A DNA stretch of 23,427 nucleotides from a virus: the IMG/VR virus record IMGVR_UViG_3300046680_000197, positions 1 through 23,427 of that record; one strand, 5' to 3'. The position numbers and the translations under genes were made by a program. Positions 14,190 to 22,930 of this stretch are shown piece after piece. Below the pieces are notes generated by a model. It worked only from the letters and a program-made list of their open reading frames with translations. It was not told where the DNA came from and made no database searches. Numbering within the stretch: position 1 is the first letter of the stretch; each line of letters begins with the position of its first letter.

Positions 14190-14831
14190 ATGCCCGCCTA
14201 CATTGATCTCACAAATCAGAGGTTTGGTCGCCTGCTCGCGATCAAGGATGTTGGTCGTCACGGAAGCAGCGCGCTCTGGTTTTGCCGTTGTGACTGCGGC
14301 AACGAACTGGCCGTTGCCAGCATCTATCTTCGCCAAGGCGACACCAAATCGTGCGGATGCCTCAAGCGCACAAATCCAGGTCGCCTCACTCACGGCATGT
14401 CTCAACATGGGACTACACGGACACCCGAGTACAACACTTGGCTTTTGATGCGAAAACGCTGCACCAATCCGAACGACGCGCGATATAAAGACTATGGTGG
14501 TCGCGGAATTGCCGCTTGTAAGCGATGGGACTCATTCGAAAATTTCCTCGCAGATATGGGACCACGACCGAAAGATTATTCGATTGAACGCATCGACGTT
14601 GATGGCAATTACGAGCCGGTGAACTGCAAATGGATTCCTTTGTGTGATCAGTCGAAAAATCGCCGCCATAAAACCCAATGCAGAAAAGGACATACGTTGT
14701 CGCCTGACAACATAACGGTATTTCACGATGGTCAATATCCGCATCGCAGCTGCAAACAATGCGCAGCATTGCGAGATAAGGCATACAAGGCAAGACAACT
14801 CCTTAAACATAGAACCGCATGTAAGCGTTGA
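14190..14831 (+). CDS. Zinc-ribbon HNH-like homing endonuclease, copy 2
   Basis: 213 residues, paralogous to the gene at 4064. It has LTNQRFGRL, the cysteine cluster CRCDCGN (32-38) and SCGC (54-57), HGMSQHG, YNTWLLMRKRCTNPND, YGGRGIAACKRW, FENFLADMG, then SIERIDVDGNYEPVNCKW and NRR, a degenerate HNH-like site. Unlike copy 1 it continues into a second zinc-binding element (C164, H168, C188, C191, in CRKGH and SCKQCAALRDKAYKAR), a typical tail of phage HNH nucleases. It is A/T-richer than its neighbours and lies opposite to the late genes. Its 3' end overlaps the end of the convergent connector gene by 29 bases. Endonuclease activity is inferred from family. Confidence 0.82.
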   Translation: MPAYIDLTNQRFGRLLAIKDVGRHGSSALWFCRCDCGNELAVASIYLRQGDTKSCGCLKRTNPGRLTHGMSQHGTTRTPEYNTWLLMRKRCTNPNDARYKDYGGRGIAACKRWDSFENFLADMGPRPKDYSIERIDVDGNYEPVNCKWIPLCDQSKNRRHKTQCRKGHTLSPDNITVFHDGQYPHRSCKQCAALRDKAYKARQLLKHRTACKR

Positions 14832-15441
14832 GCAGGGAATTGACCGAGTCGAACAATGGTGAGCCGAAGCCCTTTTGGCCGAACATCTGCACCGGATCGA
14901 AATATTGCACGCGCGTGTCGCCGTGCGAGACCAAGCGGACGCCGTTGGATGCGCCCATGCGCGCCTGCATCCGCGCTGCCTGGATCAGCAGTATGGTGGC
15001 CTGCTTGAGCGCCGGCGGTGCCGCGTCCGGCAACTGATACCCGCCGCTATAGGTGACGGTGACCGGCTCGGTCCAGGCACCCTCGATGCGCAGCTTGCCG
15101 GATGCGTTCTCGATCTCGTAGCTGGCCGGATCGAGGGTCGTGCCGCGCGGCGACTCGACCGCAGTGAGATCGGCATCGGCCACCGGGTAATGCGACAGGA
15201 ACAACCGCGGCGTGTCGAATGGCGGGCTGTCGCCGCGCCAGGTTTCCGCCACCGTCTCATAGGCGAACACGCGATTGCACATGGTAGCGACAACATCGCT
15301 GTACTGGTCGATCCACAACTGCAGCTGCGCGTCCTCGGCGGTGTTGGCCGGCGGGATGTTGAGCAGAGTTTTCAGTTCATCCAGCGTCAGCAATGCGTAA
15401 CTGTCGGCCGGCTGCAACACCTTCACCCAGACATCGGCCAT
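14803..15441 (-). CDS. Head-tail connector protein (gp6-like)
   Basis: 212 residues. The ATG overlaps the preceding stop by one base (TGATG). LLTLDELKTLLNIPPANTAE, LQLWIDQYSDVVATMCNRVF and ETWRGDSP form the helical N-terminus of HK97 gp6-like connectors, whose DELK..L.I....D..L...I....V... pattern is distinctive. These proteins form a ring beneath the portal. A beta insertion (PVTVTYSGGYQLPDAAPPAL) precedes a helix LKQATILLIQAARMQARMG. The C-terminal 9 codons are read on the opposite strand by the nuclease gene, but the C-terminus looks intact. Confidence 0.9.
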   Translation of the reverse strand: MADVWVKVLQPADSYALLTLDELKTLLNIPPANTAEDAQLQLWIDQYSDVVATMCNRVFAYETVAETWRGDSPPFDTPRLFLSHYPVADADLTAVESPRGTTLDPASYEIENASGKLRIEGAWTEPVTVTYSGGYQLPDAAPPALKQATILLIQAARMQARMGASNGVRLVSHGDTRVQYFDPVQMFGQKGFGSPLFDSVNSLLNAYMRFYV

Positions 15442-16358
15442 CAGCGCGCCTCGTCGTGGAACTGTTCGAACAGACCGCGCAGCTCAAGCGGCGGCGCCTC
15501 GCTCTGGTCGGACAGGATGGGCGTTGCGGTATAGGTCTTGCGGTCGATCGTCCAGCCGAGGATCAGTGGGGCAGAAACGCCCGGCAGGCCGCGGGCACCG
15601 GCTTCCCCGCGTTCGCCGCGCTGGCCCGGTAGCCCCTGAGTGCCCTTGCGGCCGGCGGACGCGATCAATTGCCAGCCCTCGCCGGGACAGGGGCCGGGCT
15701 GGTCGCGCCGCGCGATGAAACTCGAACCGCCGACCGCGGCGATATCGAGCGCCGCATAGGTCTCATCTTCTTTCCAGGTACCACGCACCTTCGGCATCAC
15801 GGCATCGCGGCCGGGGCGCGCGAGACAGATCCAGTCGGCATGGCCAGGCGCCTGCCCGGTGTCACGACTGGCCTGCCAGACGCCACCGCTATGGGTAACC
15901 ACGGCGCCGGCATAGTGAACGGTTTCAGGTGCCCATTCCCGCGCCAGCGGCAGCGTTCCGGGCTTGCCCTCTGGTCCGGGGAGGCCCGGCTCGCCAACCG
16001 CACCGACGAGTCCCTGCGGCCCCGTGGCGCCGCCTTCGCCGGCCAATCCTTGTGGGCCAGGTTCGCCGGCCGGCCCTTGTGGTCCCGGCTCGCCGTCGCG
16101 GCCATCGCGCACCGCCGCCAGCCGGTCGGCAATTTGGCGTTCCAACGCTCCGAGCTTCTCGGTAATACCGGCGCGCAATTCGGCGATCGTCGCCGTCGCT
16201 TGTGCTTCAAAAAGCGCATTCCCGCGCTGCCATTGCCGGCGTTCTTCTGCCAGTGCCTGCCCGAGTACATCGCGCCAAGCGTCAAGCAGACAGTCGGCGT
16301 CGGTCGAATCGGTCGGCGCTGGCAAAAATGTTTCGGGCCTCTCGTCGAGTAATGTCAT
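15441..16358 (-). CDS. Collagen-like protein with carbohydrate-binding-like modules
   Basis: 305 residues. The start overlaps the portal's 3' end by 77 bases. Residues 35-84 form a coiled coil (LGALERQIADRLAAV) that could trimerise the chain. Two Gly-X-Y runs follow, at about 86-134 (GEPGPQGPAGEPGPQGLAGE) and 236-260 (GRKGTQGLPGQRGERGEAGA). Between them are two modules of the W.....Y..G..V...G..W.A pattern (VVTHSGGVWQASRDTGQAPG; DIAAVGGSSFIARRDQPGPC), like CBM5/12-type modules. Collagen-like phage proteins are usually fibres. Here the gene sits between portal and connector, so it may be a head or neck fibre that binds surface sugars. That is inferred from the location. Confidence 0.88.
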   Translation of the reverse strand: MTLLDERPETFLPAPTDSTDADCLLDAWRDVLGQALAEERRQWQRGNALFEAQATATIAELRAGITEKLGALERQIADRLAAVRDGRDGEPGPQGPAGEPGPQGLAGEGGATGPQGLVGAVGEPGLPGPEGKPGTLPLAREWAPETVHYAGAVVTHSGGVWQASRDTGQAPGHADWICLARPGRDAVMPKVRGTWKEDETYAALDIAAVGGSSFIARRDQPGPCPGEGWQLIASAGRKGTQGLPGQRGERGEAGARGLPGVSAPLILGWTIDRKTYTATPILSDQSEAPPLELRGLFEQFHDEAR

Positions 16359-17727
16359 CGCGGTTGCCCTTTTTCGGCGGCGCGGGAGGTTGCGGCGCCG
16401 CTTCTGGTGCGGCTGGCGAAGGCGGCGCAGGCGATGCCGGGATCTTCCCGACTTGGCTCAAGGGAACGACCTGTTGCTGCACCCTGGGTTCATCGCCAAA
16501 TGGAACCGCTTCATAGCCCTCGAGCGCACGCGCTTCATTAGGCGCGAAAATTCCACCTTGCACGCCGCGCGCCAGACTATCGATGCGATCCTTCATCGCC
16601 GAGCGCAGCAGTGCCTCGGTGTCGAATTCCACATATTCGTCGGGCTGGCCGCCGAGGCCAAACAGCAGGCCGAACGCCTCCTCAATATGATTGAGCGCAA
16701 AGCCTAAGCCGGATGATTTCCAGCTTTGCATCAGTGCCTCGGTCGAGGAAAAAGTTGTGCCACCAATGCCGAGGATCTGTAGCGGAATACGAAACGCCAA
16801 GGCGATGTGCTCGTTCGATAGTTTCAGCATGTCGGCGGTGGCAGCGTCCTTGCCGCTTGCCGCCCACGGCTGCACCTTCAGGCCGGCGGTGAGGATCGGC
16901 GTGCCGCCCTTGTGTAGGCCCTTGGCCTGCTCGTTCCAGAGATCACGCAGCGCCTGCAACTGATTCTTGTCCATCGTCATGTCAGTGGATAACACTGCCG
17001 ACGGGCGCGCTTCGTTCAGGTAATACCGCAATTGCTGCTGGCCGATCGCGGCATTGACGCCGATGTCGCTATAGGCGGCGATGATCGGGCTTTCGCCGAT
17101 CAGTGGCACCGGCCAGCGATGCCGCTCCGTGTGTAGCCGTATATGCAGCACGTCGCGCTGCGGGATGATCATCGGCTCGCCGCCGAGCCGTTTCTCGATC
17201 ACCTGATTGCCGAATAACTGGTAGAAGATCTCGCCGTTATTGCCGAGCCGCGGATAGGACAGCAACGGGTCCATCAGATGCAATTCGTCAATCTCGTAGC
17301 GCGAATTGCGCAAGCCGAGCGCATAGGCATTGCCGTGCAGGTAGAGCGCCCGCGTCGCGTTCAGCATGAAGTCGCTGATCGACTGGTAGTCGTTAGGATG
17401 GCGCAGGAGACGCGAGAGCGCCGAAGTCTTGACGCGCTCGCGTCCGCCTTTGTCGTTCAGCCGCCAATGATCGCCGGGCAGCATCGCCACGGTCTGCGCA
17501 TAGGCCGAGATGCAAGCCTCGACCATGGCCGACTGTGACGATGCCCCGACGACGTTGTAGCCATTCTGCCACCAGTTCCAGCTATCGCCGACATCGGCCG
17601 GCAACCAGCCGCCGCTGACCGGCAGGAACCACGGCCCGGCATGGGCCTCGCCTTCGGCCTTGGTCACGAGCGTCGGAACGCCCCCGGCCTTGACGCGATA
17701 GCGAGGCTTGGCGGCCGGCTCAGTCAT
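16282..17727 (-). CDS. Portal protein (HK97 family)
   Basis: 481 residues from the ATG at 17727, which overlaps the previous gene by 8 bases. The longer frame reads the overlap as an Arg/Pro-rich shadow. Forms the dodecameric portal vertex for DNA packaging and head-tail joining. Recognisable segments are AMVEACISAYAQTVAMLPGD, SDFMLNATRALYLHGNAYAL, QQLRYYLNEARPSAVL, DMTMDKNQLQALRDLWNEQA and TTFSSTEALMQSWKSSGLGF, which is a diagnostic HK97-portal helix. The C-terminal region is Pro/Ala-rich (IPASPAPPSPAAPEAAPQPP) and disordered. It follows the capsid gene, whereas in most relatives it precedes the protease. Confidence 0.95.
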   Translation of the reverse strand: MTEPAAKPRYRVKAGGVPTLVTKAEGEAHAGPWFLPVSGGWLPADVGDSWNWWQNGYNVVGASSQSAMVEACISAYAQTVAMLPGDHWRLNDKGGRERVKTSALSRLLRHPNDYQSISDFMLNATRALYLHGNAYALGLRNSRYEIDELHLMDPLLSYPRLGNNGEIFYQLFGNQVIEKRLGGEPMIIPQRDVLHIRLHTERHRWPVPLIGESPIIAAYSDIGVNAAIGQQQLRYYLNEARPSAVLSTDMTMDKNQLQALRDLWNEQAKGLHKGGTPILTAGLKVQPWAASGKDAATADMLKLSNEHIALAFRIPLQILGIGGTTFSSTEALMQSWKSSGLGFALNHIEEAFGLLFGLGGQPDEYVEFDTEALLRSAMKDRIDSLARGVQGGIFAPNEARALEGYEAVPFGDEPRVQQQVVPLSQVGKIPASPAPPSPAAPEAAPQPPAPPKKGNRDDITRREARNIFASADRFDRRRLSA

Positions 17728-18052
17728 GCGACGGCGCGGTCCTGGTCTGATAGGCACCGCGGCTGGCCGGCTTGCCCTCGATCTGCCGCTTGTCGGTTGC
17801 CACCGGCGTGATGCCCGGATCGGGCGGCGAGCCATCCGGCTCGTGCTCGACGATATGCACGCCGAGTGCTGCCATATCGTTCTCTTCCTGGGTCGGCGTG
17901 GGTTTTACCTCGCCGGCCACACCCCGCTGCTCGGCGTGGGCTTTCTCCCGCGCCTCTTTCTCCTCGGCAAGCCGCTTCTTGGTGGCTTCCTTATGGGTTT
18001 CCGCCGCCTTGGCGCGTTCCTGTGCCTGATGTTCGGTGTTTTGTTCGGCCAT
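17720..18052 (-). CDS. Small charged protein between capsid and portal
   Basis: 110 residues from the ATG at 18052, with a perfect AGGAGG five bases upstream; an ATG at 18070 would lie within the parS-like palindrome. The N-terminal half is a highly charged helix (QAQERAKAAETHKEATKKRL, AEEKEAREKAHAEQRG). The C-terminal half is Pro/Asp-rich and probably disordered (PDGSPPDPGITPVATDKRQI). Shape and place suggest a scaffold-like or portal-associated factor. The capsid gene seems to carry its own delta-like scaffold region, so this is only a guess. No family is recognised. Confidence 0.8.
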   Translation of the reverse strand: MAEQNTEHQAQERAKAAETHKEATKKRLAEEKEAREKAHAEQRGVAGEVKPTPTQEENDMAALGVHIVEHEPDGSPPDPGITPVATDKRQIEGKPASRGAYQTRTAPSHD

Positions 18053-18092: not shown

Positions 18093-20255
18093 TTACCAGG
18101 TCACTCCAGCCGACCATGCGACCACGCCAGCGCGCCGGATGGTCCAGTTGCAGGGAAGGATCAACCGCAGGGCGAGCGAGTCGGTCTGCCACATCGACTT
18201 GACCGGAGCCGCCACCGTGGCGGGCGAGCCGGGCGTGCCGATGTCGAGCGGTGTCGTGTCCTCCATATGCAAGGTCGCCTGATCGGAAATCTCAAACCTC
18301 GGCGCATCGCCGCCCACCGCCACGAAGTCGGCGGCATCGATGGCGATCACGGTGCCGAGCGGGACCGTGCCCGAGTCGATCACCGGCCAGCCGCCCAATT
18401 GCCCGGCCTGGATCTCGCTGCGATACGGGAACACGCCGGCGCCGGGTGCCGCAACATAGAGCGCGCTGTTGATCTGTTGCGGGTTCATCAGCCAGACCGG
18501 ATTACGGACGTTGCCCTTAGTGCCGGTCAGGAGCGCACCGGAGATCGCCTTGATGTCGCCGGTCAGAGCGGCGAAGCCACCACCGGCGGTCGGTGTAAGT
18601 CCGCTGATGCCGTTGAGGATGCCGGCCGGCCGAACCGTGGTGGCCGGGTTGGCATCGAGCAGCACCGAGTCGAGCGAGATCGCGGTGTCCTCCTGCACGC
18701 CGTCGCGCAGCAAGCCCTCGATCGCCGGCACGGAATGTTCGCTGAGCTCCCGCGTCCAGGTCGTGATCACCGCCATTTTCTTCGGCGTCAGGGTTTGCGA
18801 GGTGAACAGGCCCTGGCGCACCGGGATCGGCAAGCCTTCACCGACGAACGAGCCGGCAATGGTTGGCGTGGTGGCCCGCGTCGGGATCGAGATCTTGCCG
18901 GCGGTGCCGAAACTCAGCGACAGGCCCTTGCCGGCCAACCGCGGAAACACCGCTTTCGGATAGAGCACTTCCATGAAGGCGGTGAACAGCGTCTGCGCCA
19001 GTTCGGCGGCCCAGCCGGTTTGCGTCGTGGTGGCGATGGTGGAAGCGGCACGCGCCGAGTAATCGAGCAGGGCGCGGGTGGCGTCGTCGTCACCGTAGAT
19101 TTCGCGCATCTTCTCGGCGCACGAAACGCGGTCGCGATGCGCGAGCAGTTGCACGGTGCCGGCACGCACCAGGTGATCGATCGCGCTCAGTTGCTTGCGC
19201 GGCGGTGCGCTGAACGGCCGTGCCGCCGAGATCTGCCGGGCGGGAACTGCGGGTGTGGGCGCGCGGACTACCAGTGCGTGGCTATTGCCGCCTGAGTCAT
19301 CTGAGGTGGCAGCGAGATGACGCTCGGCCTCGCGCAGCCCGGCGAGCGTGCGTTCCTCGAGCGCAATGCGGTTTTTCAGTTCGTCCGCGGTTGTCAGTTG
19401 ATCGTCACTGACATTGGCGTCGTCGGTTTTGGCCCAGTGGTCATTGAGCTGATCGCGCAGCCCGTTCAGCCGCTGCTCGGCAGCGGTAATTCTTTGAGCA
19501 TACGACATCGTCGTGCCCTTCCTTGTATCTGATGAATTCCTGGCGTGCCCGCCGATGAGCCCGCGCCGTCGCATGCCGTTGTCTTTGCCTTTCCCGGCGA
19601 AAACGACATCGATGGTGGCGGGCGAAATTTTGAGCGACTTGGCGACGGCCAGCGCATTCGGATTGGCTGGCACCGAGACCAGCGAGGTCTCGACCAATTC
19701 GGCCTTGGTAAAATACATGCCCTCGGATTCCGGCCGCGGCTTGGAACCTTTCGGGCGGAAGCCGACGCTGACCGCGCGCAGGATGCCGGCGTCGATCAGT
19801 TTGCGGATCTCGTCGATGCGAGCGCTGGTGCCAGCTGGCGCCAGTTCGAGATGGCCGCGCAGTTGCTTGTCGACGACGCGGACGTTCGACCACTTGCCGA
19901 TCGGCGCATCCTTGTTGTGGTTGAACAGCGCGATCGGGTTTTTCTGGAAGTTGCCGATGTCCCAGCCGTCCGACATGATCACGTCTTGCATGCGGTCGGG
20001 AGTTTCGTCCGACAGCACATACTCGAGACCGTTGACTTGGCCGGTATGGGTCTTGTGGCAGATGCCGGCGGCGCCGGACATGGCCATATCGTCCTCGGCG
20101 GCGTCGTCGTCCCAGATCAGTTGGCAGACGTTGAGGTCGCCAACCTGCTCGCCGCAGCGGCTCATGAAGTCTTCGTAGCTCTCACCGTCGTCGGGATACA
20201 GATCGCCCTCTTCCAGGCCGCCCACGTCCGAGCCCTGGCGCCGTTGTGTGCGCAT
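18093..20255 (-). CDS. Fused prohead protease and major capsid protein
   Basis: 720 residues; ATG at 20255 with GGAGG five bases upstream. Residues about 24-50 carry a DFMSRC...VCQLIWDD motif often attached to HK97 proteases. The S78 protease spans about 60-215, with His113 in LFNHNKDAPIG, Ser163 in AVSVGF and a Glu at 186 or 189 in AELVETSLVSVPANP as likely catalytic residues. After a linker, residues 250-340 (SYAQRITAAEQRLNGLRDQL) form a helical delta-like scaffold region. Residues about 370-720 are the HK97 capsid fold (LFTAFMEVLYPKAVFPRLAG, WTRELSEHSVPAIEGLLRDG, VWLMNPQQINSALYV, LGGWPVIDSGTVPLGTVIAI). Normally these are two genes. An internal ATG at residue 250 has a strong ribosome binding site and probably makes free capsid. 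Confidence 0.95.
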   Translation of the reverse strand: MRTQRRQGSDVGGLEEGDLYPDDGESYEDFMSRCGEQVGDLNVCQLIWDDDAAEDDMAMSGAAGICHKTHTGQVNGLEYVLSDETPDRMQDVIMSDGWDIGNFQKNPIALFNHNKDAPIGKWSNVRVVDKQLRGHLELAPAGTSARIDEIRKLIDAGILRAVSVGFRPKGSKPRPESEGMYFTKAELVETSLVSVPANPNALAVAKSLKISPATIDVVFAGKGKDNGMRRRGLIGGHARNSSDTRKGTTMSYAQRITAAEQRLNGLRDQLNDHWAKTDDANVSDDQLTTADELKNRIALEERTLAGLREAERHLAATSDDSGGNSHALVVRAPTPAVPARQISAARPFSAPPRKQLSAIDHLVRAGTVQLLAHRDRVSCAEKMREIYGDDDATRALLDYSARAASTIATTTQTGWAAELAQTLFTAFMEVLYPKAVFPRLAGKGLSLSFGTAGKISIPTRATTPTIAGSFVGEGLPIPVRQGLFTSQTLTPKKMAVITTWTRELSEHSVPAIEGLLRDGVQEDTAISLDSVLLDANPATTVRPAGILNGISGLTPTAGGGFAALTGDIKAISGALLTGTKGNVRNPVWLMNPQQINSALYVAAPGAGVFPYRSEIQAGQLGGWPVIDSGTVPLGTVIAIDAADFVAVGGDAPRFEISDQATLHMEDTTPLDIGTPGSPATVAAPVKSMWQTDSLALRLILPCNWTIRRAGVVAWSAGVTW
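19516..19524 (-). promoter_or_regulatory. Internal ribosome binding site for free capsid
   Basis: AAGGAAGGG lies seven bases before an in-frame ATG at 19506-19508, which is codon 250 of the fused gene. The product from this ATG is 471 residues starting MSYAQRITAAEQ, the usual beginning of a capsid precursor with a delta domain. It lies exactly at the boundary between the protease part and the capsid part, so it is likely functional. Confidence 0.65.
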
Positions 20256-20281
20256 GGCATCCTCCTCGCGGTTTTTAAGAA

Positions 20282-20563
20282 TCAGTTCTGGCGGTCGAGC
20301 GGCCAGCCGTCGGCGTCGACGCCGGGTCGCTCGCGCTCCAGCATTTTCTTCGTGGAATTGTGGCAGGTTTCACACAGCGACTGCAGTTTGCCGAGCACGA
20401 ATTTGTCCCAATTGCCGCGGTGCGGCTCGACGTGGTCGACGATGGTGGCGCGCACCACGAGCGCGCGATCGGCGCAGAACTTACAGAGCGGATGCGCGCG
20501 CAATTGTGCCCGTCGCCGCCGCAGCCAGTAGGCGGTCGAGTAGAACTGCGGCCAGTCGCCCAT
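20282..20563 (-). CDS. HNH endonuclease of the packaging module
   Basis: 93 residues from the ATG at 20563, 5 bases after the previous stop; an upstream start at 20602 would overlap that gene. The HNH core is complete: CKFC, the DHVEPHRGNWDKF strand, then LQSLCETCHNSTKK, with two Cys pairs binding structural zinc. In many HK97-like and cos phages such a small HNH protein next to terminase aids terminase cleavage or genome packaging. Here it is between two small proteins and the protease-capsid fusion, a common location. Family assignment is firm, role inferred from known relatives. Confidence 0.9.
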   Translation of the reverse strand: MGDWPQFYSTAYWLRRRRAQLRAHPLCKFCADRALVVRATIVDHVEPHRGNWDKFVLGKLQSLCETCHNSTKKMLERERPGVDADGWPLDRQN

Positions 20564-20568
20564 CGACG

Positions 20569-20907
20569 TCAGGCGGTCTCGACCGCGATGGCAAACTTGC
20601 ATGTCTCTTTTTGCGCGACCGGATGGCTGCGGCTGCCACTGCGAAACTTGATGAAGTTGATCGACTTCGTCCAGGCTTCTGCCACCACAATTCCGGTGTC
20701 GGCTTTCGCCGCCAGCGTGACCTCGCCGCCGGCCATGTGCAGGTCGTTGTAGAGGTTGCCGTCGCTCGATACTTGGAAGGTCAGGTTTGCCGAGGTGAAT
20801 TCCTGCGGCACGGTGATGCGCACGATGGTGCCGGCCGAGCAGTCGGCGCCATCGGAAAGCGATTCACCGGCGGCGATGGTCGGCCCGTCAACGATGGTCA
20901 ATGCCAT
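20569..20907 (-). CDS. Small virion protein, paralog B of a tandem pair
   Basis: 112 residues; AGGGAG precedes the ATG by about 8 bases. It shares a pattern with the adjacent upstream gene: a beta strand, then FQVSSDGNLYNDL, later INFIKFRSGSRSHPVAQKET ending in C.F...V. The two look like tandem duplicates of one beta-sandwich protein. Small genes between terminase and capsid are often head decoration or packaging accessory proteins. Decoration is plausible but unproved. No enzyme motif or membrane span is seen. Confidence 0.8.
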   Translation of the reverse strand: MALTIVDGPTIAAGESLSDGADCSAGTIVRITVPQEFTSANLTFQVSSDGNLYNDLHMAGGEVTLAAKADTGIVVAEAWTKSINFIKFRSGSRSHPVAQKETCKFAIAVETA

Positions 20908-21271: not shown

Positions 21272-22930
21272 TCACCCGATAAGGCTCTCGATATCGACCG
21301 GCTTGACCGCGGCATCACGCGCGCGCAGCCCGAGCAGCATGGCGAGCGCCACCGCGCCGTCGATGCGAAACCGCGCCTTGCCCTTGTCGAGCTTGCGGTT
21401 GCCGGCCGGATCGGTGGTGGCGATCGCGTTACCCATGTTCCAATTCAGTAACGGATTGTTATTGTGGATCAGCGAGCGTTCGGTGATGGCGAGCTCGAGC
21501 GCGTCGATCGCCGGCGCCATGTCTTTGAAGCCCTGGCCCCACGGCACCAACCGCAGCCCGTCGCCCTTCTCGCCGTCCTTGTAGGTCTGCAGCCCGAGCC
21601 GGTCGAACTCGCGCATCAGTTCGTTGATGCGCCAGCGATCGTAGGCGAGTCCGCGAATGCGATACCGCTGCGTCAGCTCGGCGATGTAGAGCGCCACCAC
21701 CGACGGGTCGATGCTCTTGCCGGGCGAAGTCTTGAGGTGCCCGGCCTCGTGCCATTCCACATAGCGCAAATTGCCGGCGCCAAAGTCGCGGTTGCTATGG
21801 TCGCGCAGCAGGTCAGCCGGCTTCCAGAACAGCGACTGCACCCGCATCGGCTCGTCGACCGAGCCCATCACCAGCGCGGTCAGATCCCAAACGCTCGACA
21901 GATCGACGCCGAGATAGACCTCCTCGCCGTCGACGAACTCGGCCGGCCCAGCGCAGGCAAACCACTCGGCGCGGGCGATCAGCGAGGCGTTCGGCGACAC
22001 CCGCTGGTTCAGGAACAGGTTGCGCACCTTCGGCTCTTCCGCCGGCATGCGCATTGCCTTGTAGACCGCGGTCACCAGATCCTCGCGGTCGCGAAAGATG
22101 CCGAGCGCCGGGTTGGCTTTCGACCACTGGCTCTCGTCGTCGAGCGCACAGTCCTCGTCGGCGGCGTACAGATGGCAGACAATCGCCGGATCGGTCTTCG
22201 CCAGCCCGTCGTCGATCAGTTTGGAAAGAATATGCTCGGGATCGTTCGACTGCGTCGAGATGGTCACAAACAGCGGCTCCTCACGAGCGCCGAACGAAGT
22301 ATCGAGCACGTCATACAGATCCCGACTCTTGGCCTGTGCCAGCTCGTCGTAGATCACCAGGCTCGGCAGGTAGCCGTGCTTGGTGCCGGCCTCGGCCGAA
22401 ATGGCGCGGTAGATCGAGCCGGTCGGCCGCGCTACCATGGTCTTGGTCGACGGCACCACCTCGACCATTGCCATCAGTTCGGGCTCGAGCTCGACGATCT
22501 GGCGGGCGAACTTGAACACGATCGCCGCCTGATCGCGGTCGTTGGCGGCGCTGTAAATCTCGCCGTTCGGAATCGCTTCCGGCCCGATCAGATGAGCCAG
22601 CGCGAGCGCCGCGATCAGCGCCGTCTTACCGTTCTTGCGCCCGATCGACAGGATCGCCCGCCGCACCACGCGCCGCCCATTGCGGTGCGGCTCGTAGATG
22701 TCACGAATCCAATCTTTCTGAAACGGCGCCAGCTTGAACCGCTTGCCCTGGCCCTTCCCGCTCGGCACCGTCAGACACTCGATGAACTTGATGACCTTGG
22801 CGGCCCGCCGCTTGCCGTCCGGTGTCCTCACCGCCAACGAGGCCGGCGAACTTCGACCGGGCATTGCCGGCGGCGACGCCGGCGGCGATGCGGGCGCGGC
22901 TGGCGGGGGTAAATCCAAACTCACAGGCAT
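21272..22930 (-). CDS. terL: Terminase large subunit
   Basis: 552 residues in the longest frame. The packaging motor has Walker A GRKNGKT (97-103), Walker B LVIYDE (191-196) and coupling motif ISTQS (224-228). The nuclease domain opens with GVDLSS (Asp343) and continues with YDRWRINELMREFDRLGLQT. Conserved TerL sequence (KVIKFIECLTVPSGKGQGKR) begins only at residue 45. Residues 1-35 are Pro/Ala-rich and overlap the conserved part of terS in another frame, so the true start may be the ATG at 22864 or the GTG near 22828. The ATG at 22930 has a weak ribosome binding site. It belongs to the terminase_1 type that pairs with P27 small subunits. Confidence 0.95.
   Translation of the reverse strand: MPVSLDLPPPAAPASPPASPPAMPGRSSPASLAVRTPDGKRRAAKVIKFIECLTVPSGKGQGKRFKLAPFQKDWIRDIYEPHRNGRRVVRRAILSIGRKNGKTALIAALALAHLIGPEAIPNGEIYSAANDRDQAAIVFKFARQIVELEPELMAMVEVVPSTKTMVARPTGSIYRAISAEAGTKHGYLPSLVIYDELAQAKSRDLYDVLDTSFGAREEPLFVTISTQSNDPEHILSKLIDDGLAKTDPAIVCHLYAADEDCALDDESQWSKANPALGIFRDREDLVTAVYKAMRMPAEEPKVRNLFLNQRVSPNASLIARAEWFACAGPAEFVDGEEVYLGVDLSSVWDLTALVMGSVDEPMRVQSLFWKPADLLRDHSNRDFGAGNLRYVEWHEAGHLKTSPGKSIDPSVVALYIAELTQRYRIRGLAYDRWRINELMREFDRLGLQTYKDGEKGDGLRLVPWGQGFKDMAPAIDALELAITERSLIHNNNPLLNWNMGNAIATTDPAGNRKLDKGKARFRIDGAVALAMLLGLRARDAAVKPVDIESLIG

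Follow-up and report, generated by a model that had tools for sequence, protein, structure and literature searches.

A protease-capsid fusion gene of a tailed phage with a conserved candidate internal start for the capsid precursor

Introduction

Does a phage gene that joins the maturation protease to the capsid protein in one reading frame yield one product or two? The question is raised by a locus of the viral record IMGVR_UViG_3300046680_000197, of which positions 1 to 23,427 are referred to as the window. In phage HK97, the protease is followed by a capsid protein whose N-terminal delta domain is a scaffold built of coiled-coil helices (PMC10275583). The HK97 protease and capsid are encoded by separate genes (genes 4 and 5, respectively), whereas in the window they occupy one open reading frame (ORF). 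We consider it likely, at a probability of roughly 85%, that this ORF, part of a tailed phage's head module, holds two genes nested in the same frame and encodes both the fusion and a free delta-capsid precursor of 471 residues.

Domain architecture of the fusion gene

Protease and capsid were confirmed to lie in a single minus-strand frame of 720 uninterrupted codons (Table 1), as the first-pass annotation had stated, and both Pfam domains scored above their cut-offs: Peptidase_S78 (PF04586) with 43.5 bits against 21 (E = 4.8e-11), and Phage_capsid (PF05065) with 37.8 bits against 24.2 (E = 1.9e-9). The capsid model TIGR01554 also exceeded its cut-off (39.5 and 27.5 bits, respectively), and the protease model TIGR01543 scored 44.2, under its cut-off of 59. 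Residues 77-720 of the fusion aligned with positions 28-626 of the 626-position profile of PHROG 617 (major head protein; E = 3.8e-79). Among named phages, the closest relatives of the window's phage were Bradyrhizobium prophages, with 54-67% identity.

The AlphaFold2 model of the fusion had a mean pLDDT of 59.8, with the protease and delta parts at about 80; it was read for the protease, linker and delta regions only, the capsid part being poorly modeled. In Foldseek searches, the protease fold matched the T4 gp21 protease (5jbl; TM-score 0.61 by target), and the capsid part matched HK97-fold shells with TM-scores that were low because that part of the model was poor. Residues H113, S163 and E189 were invariant among relatives, which suggests them as candidate active-site residues of a predicted catalytic protease. 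A sequencing error or accidental fusion was ruled out, since nearly all full-length relatives, drawn from independent contigs and isolate genomes, were likewise uninterrupted; in the exception (L055), stop codons follow codon 477. Ahead of the protease domain, N-terminal residues 22-48 (about 20192-20112) form an acidic stretch whose D-F-M-x-R-C ... C-Q-x-x-W motif is conserved in many relatives.

Table 1. Features of the fusion gene and its surroundings in the window (SD, Shine-Dalgarno; energies in kcal/mol)
Feature	Position	Strand	Basis
Terminase large subunit	21272..22930	-	Profile match
SD of full-length start, GAGGAGG, anti-SD energy -11.8	20261..20267	-	Pairing energy
Protease-linker-delta-capsid fusion ORF, 720 aa	18093..20255	-	Stop codon 18095-18093
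Prohead protease domain Peptidase_S78, residues 87-204	19644..19997	-	Pfam
Hypervariable low-confidence linker, residues 221-249	19509..19595	-	Alignment and AlphaFold2 model
Conserved G-x-x-A motif in linker (GGHA, residues 235-238)	19542..19553	-	Alignment
Internal SD AAGGAAGGG, anti-SD energy -8.1	19516..19524	-	Pairing energy
Candidate internal start codon ATG, codon 250 (Met250)	19506..19508	-	In-frame
Predicted nested capsid precursor (delta and capsid), 471 aa	18093..19508	-	ORF and AlphaFold2 model
Predicted delta (scaffold) domain of two helices, residues 252-319	19299..19502	-	AlphaFold2 model
Phage_capsid match, residues 451-644	18324..18905	-	Pfam
Portal protein	16282..17835	-	Profile match

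Candidate internal start codon and the domain junction

Inside the frame, the ATG at codon 250 is preceded by the SD sequence that had been noted at first pass (Table 1). When 14 ATGs in this frame were scored, it had the strongest anti-SD pairing (runner-up, -5.9 kcal/mol), and an upstream site as strong was found at 2.5% of the codon positions in the ORF. The product lengths proposed for the two starts, 720 and 471 residues, were also correct, the shorter product being predicted to comprise delta plus capsid. The placement of codon 250 exactly at the delta/capsid boundary was mistaken; it lies at the junction between the protease-linker part and the delta domain. In the AlphaFold2 model, confidence was low over residues 221-250, helices spanned residues 252-276 and 284-319, confidence was again low over residues 319-353, and helices resumed at residue 358. 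Since the linker is of low confidence up to residue 250 and helices follow from residue 252, codon 250 starts the predicted delta domain, with Met250 two residues ahead of the delta helices and the delta/mature-capsid junction about 70-105 residues beyond it.

Conservation among homologous fusions

Relatives were gathered from IMG/VR (75) and bacterial genomes (15), with more from GenBank phages and two family searches. All 82 fused ORFs of the window's family had an in-frame ATG at most three codons from the aligned Met250, down to about 40% identity, a count that is independent of the SD sequence, whereas the surrounding linker was not kept: in columns 239-249, the commonest residue was shared by just 17-73% of 30 representatives. 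The G-x-x-A motif (GGQA/GEHA) is also conserved in the linkers of L036-L073, and many relatives have it in two or three copies.

An SD-like sequence was retained before the ATG across clades with differing codons and peptides, and it was weak in 12 of the 82 fusions. Among 34 representatives, the mean SD energy at the boundary ATG was -7.0 kcal/mol, compared with -2.9 kcal/mol at the remaining in-frame ATGs in these ORFs (Wilcoxon p = 4e-10), where the set includes distant fusions, in the most distant of which the boundary ATG was picked by linker position and SD, favoring strong values. The RNA around the boundary ATG was also more open in these representatives (0.50 vs 0.38 unpaired, p = 8e-9). 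In 30 sequences under 80% identity, the boundary SD was stronger than in synonymous recodings weighted by the codon usage of the respective gene, at an average cost of about 1.9 kcal/mol on recoding (Fisher combined p = 6e-6, with many sequences singly not significant). All of these p-values overstate the case, as the representatives share ancestry and are not independent. Counting sites with both ATG and SD over a whole 110-codon interval (33 in 3740 codons vs 119 in 19978) gave a weak test because about one such site per gene is expected, and the position-specific test was used instead.

Distant fusions and separate-gene relatives

At about 25% identity, the fusions of PAJU2, FSL SP-016 and JLK-2012 also had an ATG with SD at the same protease-linker/delta junction. 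In a second fusion family, an in-frame linker ATG with SD was usual (ep3, PPpW-3, VP882, phiHAP-1, CRP-811 and RcRhea); a clear SD at the linker ATG was not found in two of its members, S-LBS1 and FoX1. Where relatives encode protease and capsid separately, the capsid gene begins at the point equivalent to Met250: the protease stop overlaps the capsid start in Mcat9 (SD -8.0), and a short gap separates the two genes in phiKM1. In numerous relatives, a single in-frame stop divides protease from capsid; these were set aside as evidence on the origin of the fusion because the search that yielded them favors same-frame neighbors.

Capsid-only matches in L071 and L096 were rejected as split genes: each is a second homologue of the capsid, and no protease was found in its vicinity. 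Such HK97-type homologues, with a short N-terminus and no protease part, were seen in five relatives (L037:1604-2683, L086:2748-3896, L088:2782-3918, L071:2653-3918 and L096:3755-4903), directly upstream of the protease-capsid fusion in L037, L086 and L088; a search of the window for such a homologue found none.

Upstream start and product ratio

The first-pass annotation had predicted two products, with little fusion and much free capsid. The ATG, the SD conserved in a way that suggests function, the low local structure and the separate-gene relatives all favor two products, and on this comparative evidence the cell very probably also makes the shell protein alone from a second start inside the fusion. 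The predicted levels found no such support in the sequence. SD strength was rejected as a sign of a low fusion level, the upstream SD being stronger than the internal one in the window (-11.8 vs -8.1 kcal/mol) and in close relatives (L006, L015 and L082-L086; -10 to -12 vs -4.4). Either order occurred in other phages: the internal SD was stronger in PAJU2 and VP882, and the first SD was stronger in FSL SP-016 and JLK-2012.

Alternative explanations and proposed mechanism

The conserved ATG could also be read without a second start, the fusion being the sole translation product. Self-cleavage within the linker, for instance close to the G-x-x-A motif, would then release all free capsid, and the internal ATG and SD would be left over from an ancestor in which the capsid gene was separate. 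Such a reading would accommodate the stronger SD of the upstream start, seen both in the window and in close relatives, the weak SD at the internal ATG of some fusions, and the conservation of the motif, which is repeated in some relatives and may be a self-cleavage or binding site. A remnant, however, should decay, so that retention of both the ATG, in a linker otherwise not kept, and the SD argues against it, and SD pairing is maintained beyond what the encoded peptide would need. We regard a single product as unlikely.

A still less probable explanation, to which we give very little credence, is that the needs of the protein keep Met250 and the preceding purine-rich codons, whether for a basic peptide of the K-G type or for a hydrophobic residue capping the delta helix, and that the likeness to an SD is a by-product. 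K246 and G247 are indeed the most frequent residues before Met250, and AAAGGG by itself yields about -4.4 kcal/mol. Yet the peptide before Met250 varies (QGGFPM, GEQAM, GGAAM and RRTPM) while SD pairing persists, synonymous recoding weakens the pairing on average, as described above, and in the second fusion family an ATG with SD is usually present next to peptides of unrelated sequence.

From the reading frame, its domains, the ATG and SD and their conservation, we infer initiation at codon 250, and the nested gene pair remains our preferred reading. Ribosomes starting at 20255 would produce the protease-linker-delta-capsid fusion, and those starting at 19508 the free precursor. To judge from HK97 biology, the two would co-assemble, as is expected of products that share their delta and capsid domains; the fusion would carry the maturation protease covalently into the procapsid, and the protease would cut off the delta domains and probably also itself. 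Placement of the protease inside the procapsid by fusion, as had been suggested, is plausible by analogy, and the protease dose would be set jointly by the two starts.

If this is true, the fusion becomes a dosing device, in which one message with two starts would give a mixed shell with a fraction of subunits bearing the maturation protease, and an unannotated free capsid precursor would be predicted in many phage records. We lean slightly toward the broader proposition that nested dual genes are the general rule among the protease-capsid fusions of tailed phages, the capsid keeping a start of its own and the two starts setting the amount of protease built covalently into the procapsid, that this would hold in at least two families, and that annotation has overlooked it.

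Comparison with known systems

Fusions of protease and capsid are already known. Those of the PHROG 617 / NF045541 type (PAJU2 and JLK-2012) have the same protease-linker-delta-capsid order in one ORF, with an ATG and SD at the same junction, but differ from the window's fusion in sequence (about 25% identity) and are annotated as one product only, that of PAJU2 as 'prohead protease fused capsid protein'. Against NCBIfam NF045541, the window's fusion scored 39.6 bits with a cut-off of 525, placing it outside this narrow family despite the like architecture. Jilinvirus/Hapunavirus-type fusions (ep3, VP882 and phiHAP-1) also combine the protease and an HK97-type capsid in one ORF, in a separate sequence family. 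One gene of Pseudomonas phage MD8, that for gp5, encodes protease, scaffold and capsid together, and the paper describing it mentions no internal start (PMC8508860); its likeness to the window's fusion lies in the described architecture. Searches of open-access papers found no account of such fusions in which the capsid has a start of its own.

The closest functional parallel is found in a different arrangement. Nu3 of phage lambda is made from an in-frame internal start. The gene for this smaller assembly protein overlaps that of the protease, C (PMC11739229). Lambda nests the scaffold in the protease gene and keeps the capsid gene E separate, whereas the window nests the capsid itself, as delta plus capsid. 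The conserved in-frame internal start with an SD that characterizes the lambda C/Nu3 type is present in the window's fusion; the window's predicted pair would work like lambda C/Nu3 but is not a member of that system.

Neighboring genes

The fusion gene is flanked by head-module genes, with the terminase subunits upstream and the portal downstream (Table 1). Immediately upstream of the fusion is a gene for a small HNH endonuclease (20282-20602, minus strand). Between the portal and the head-tail adaptor, a collagen-repeat protein is encoded (15441-16358, minus strand) that weakly matches a carbohydrate-binding module. Among the head genes, a 213-aa ORF on the opposite strand (14190-14831, plus strand) has, by eye, the look of a free-standing HNH-type endonuclease.
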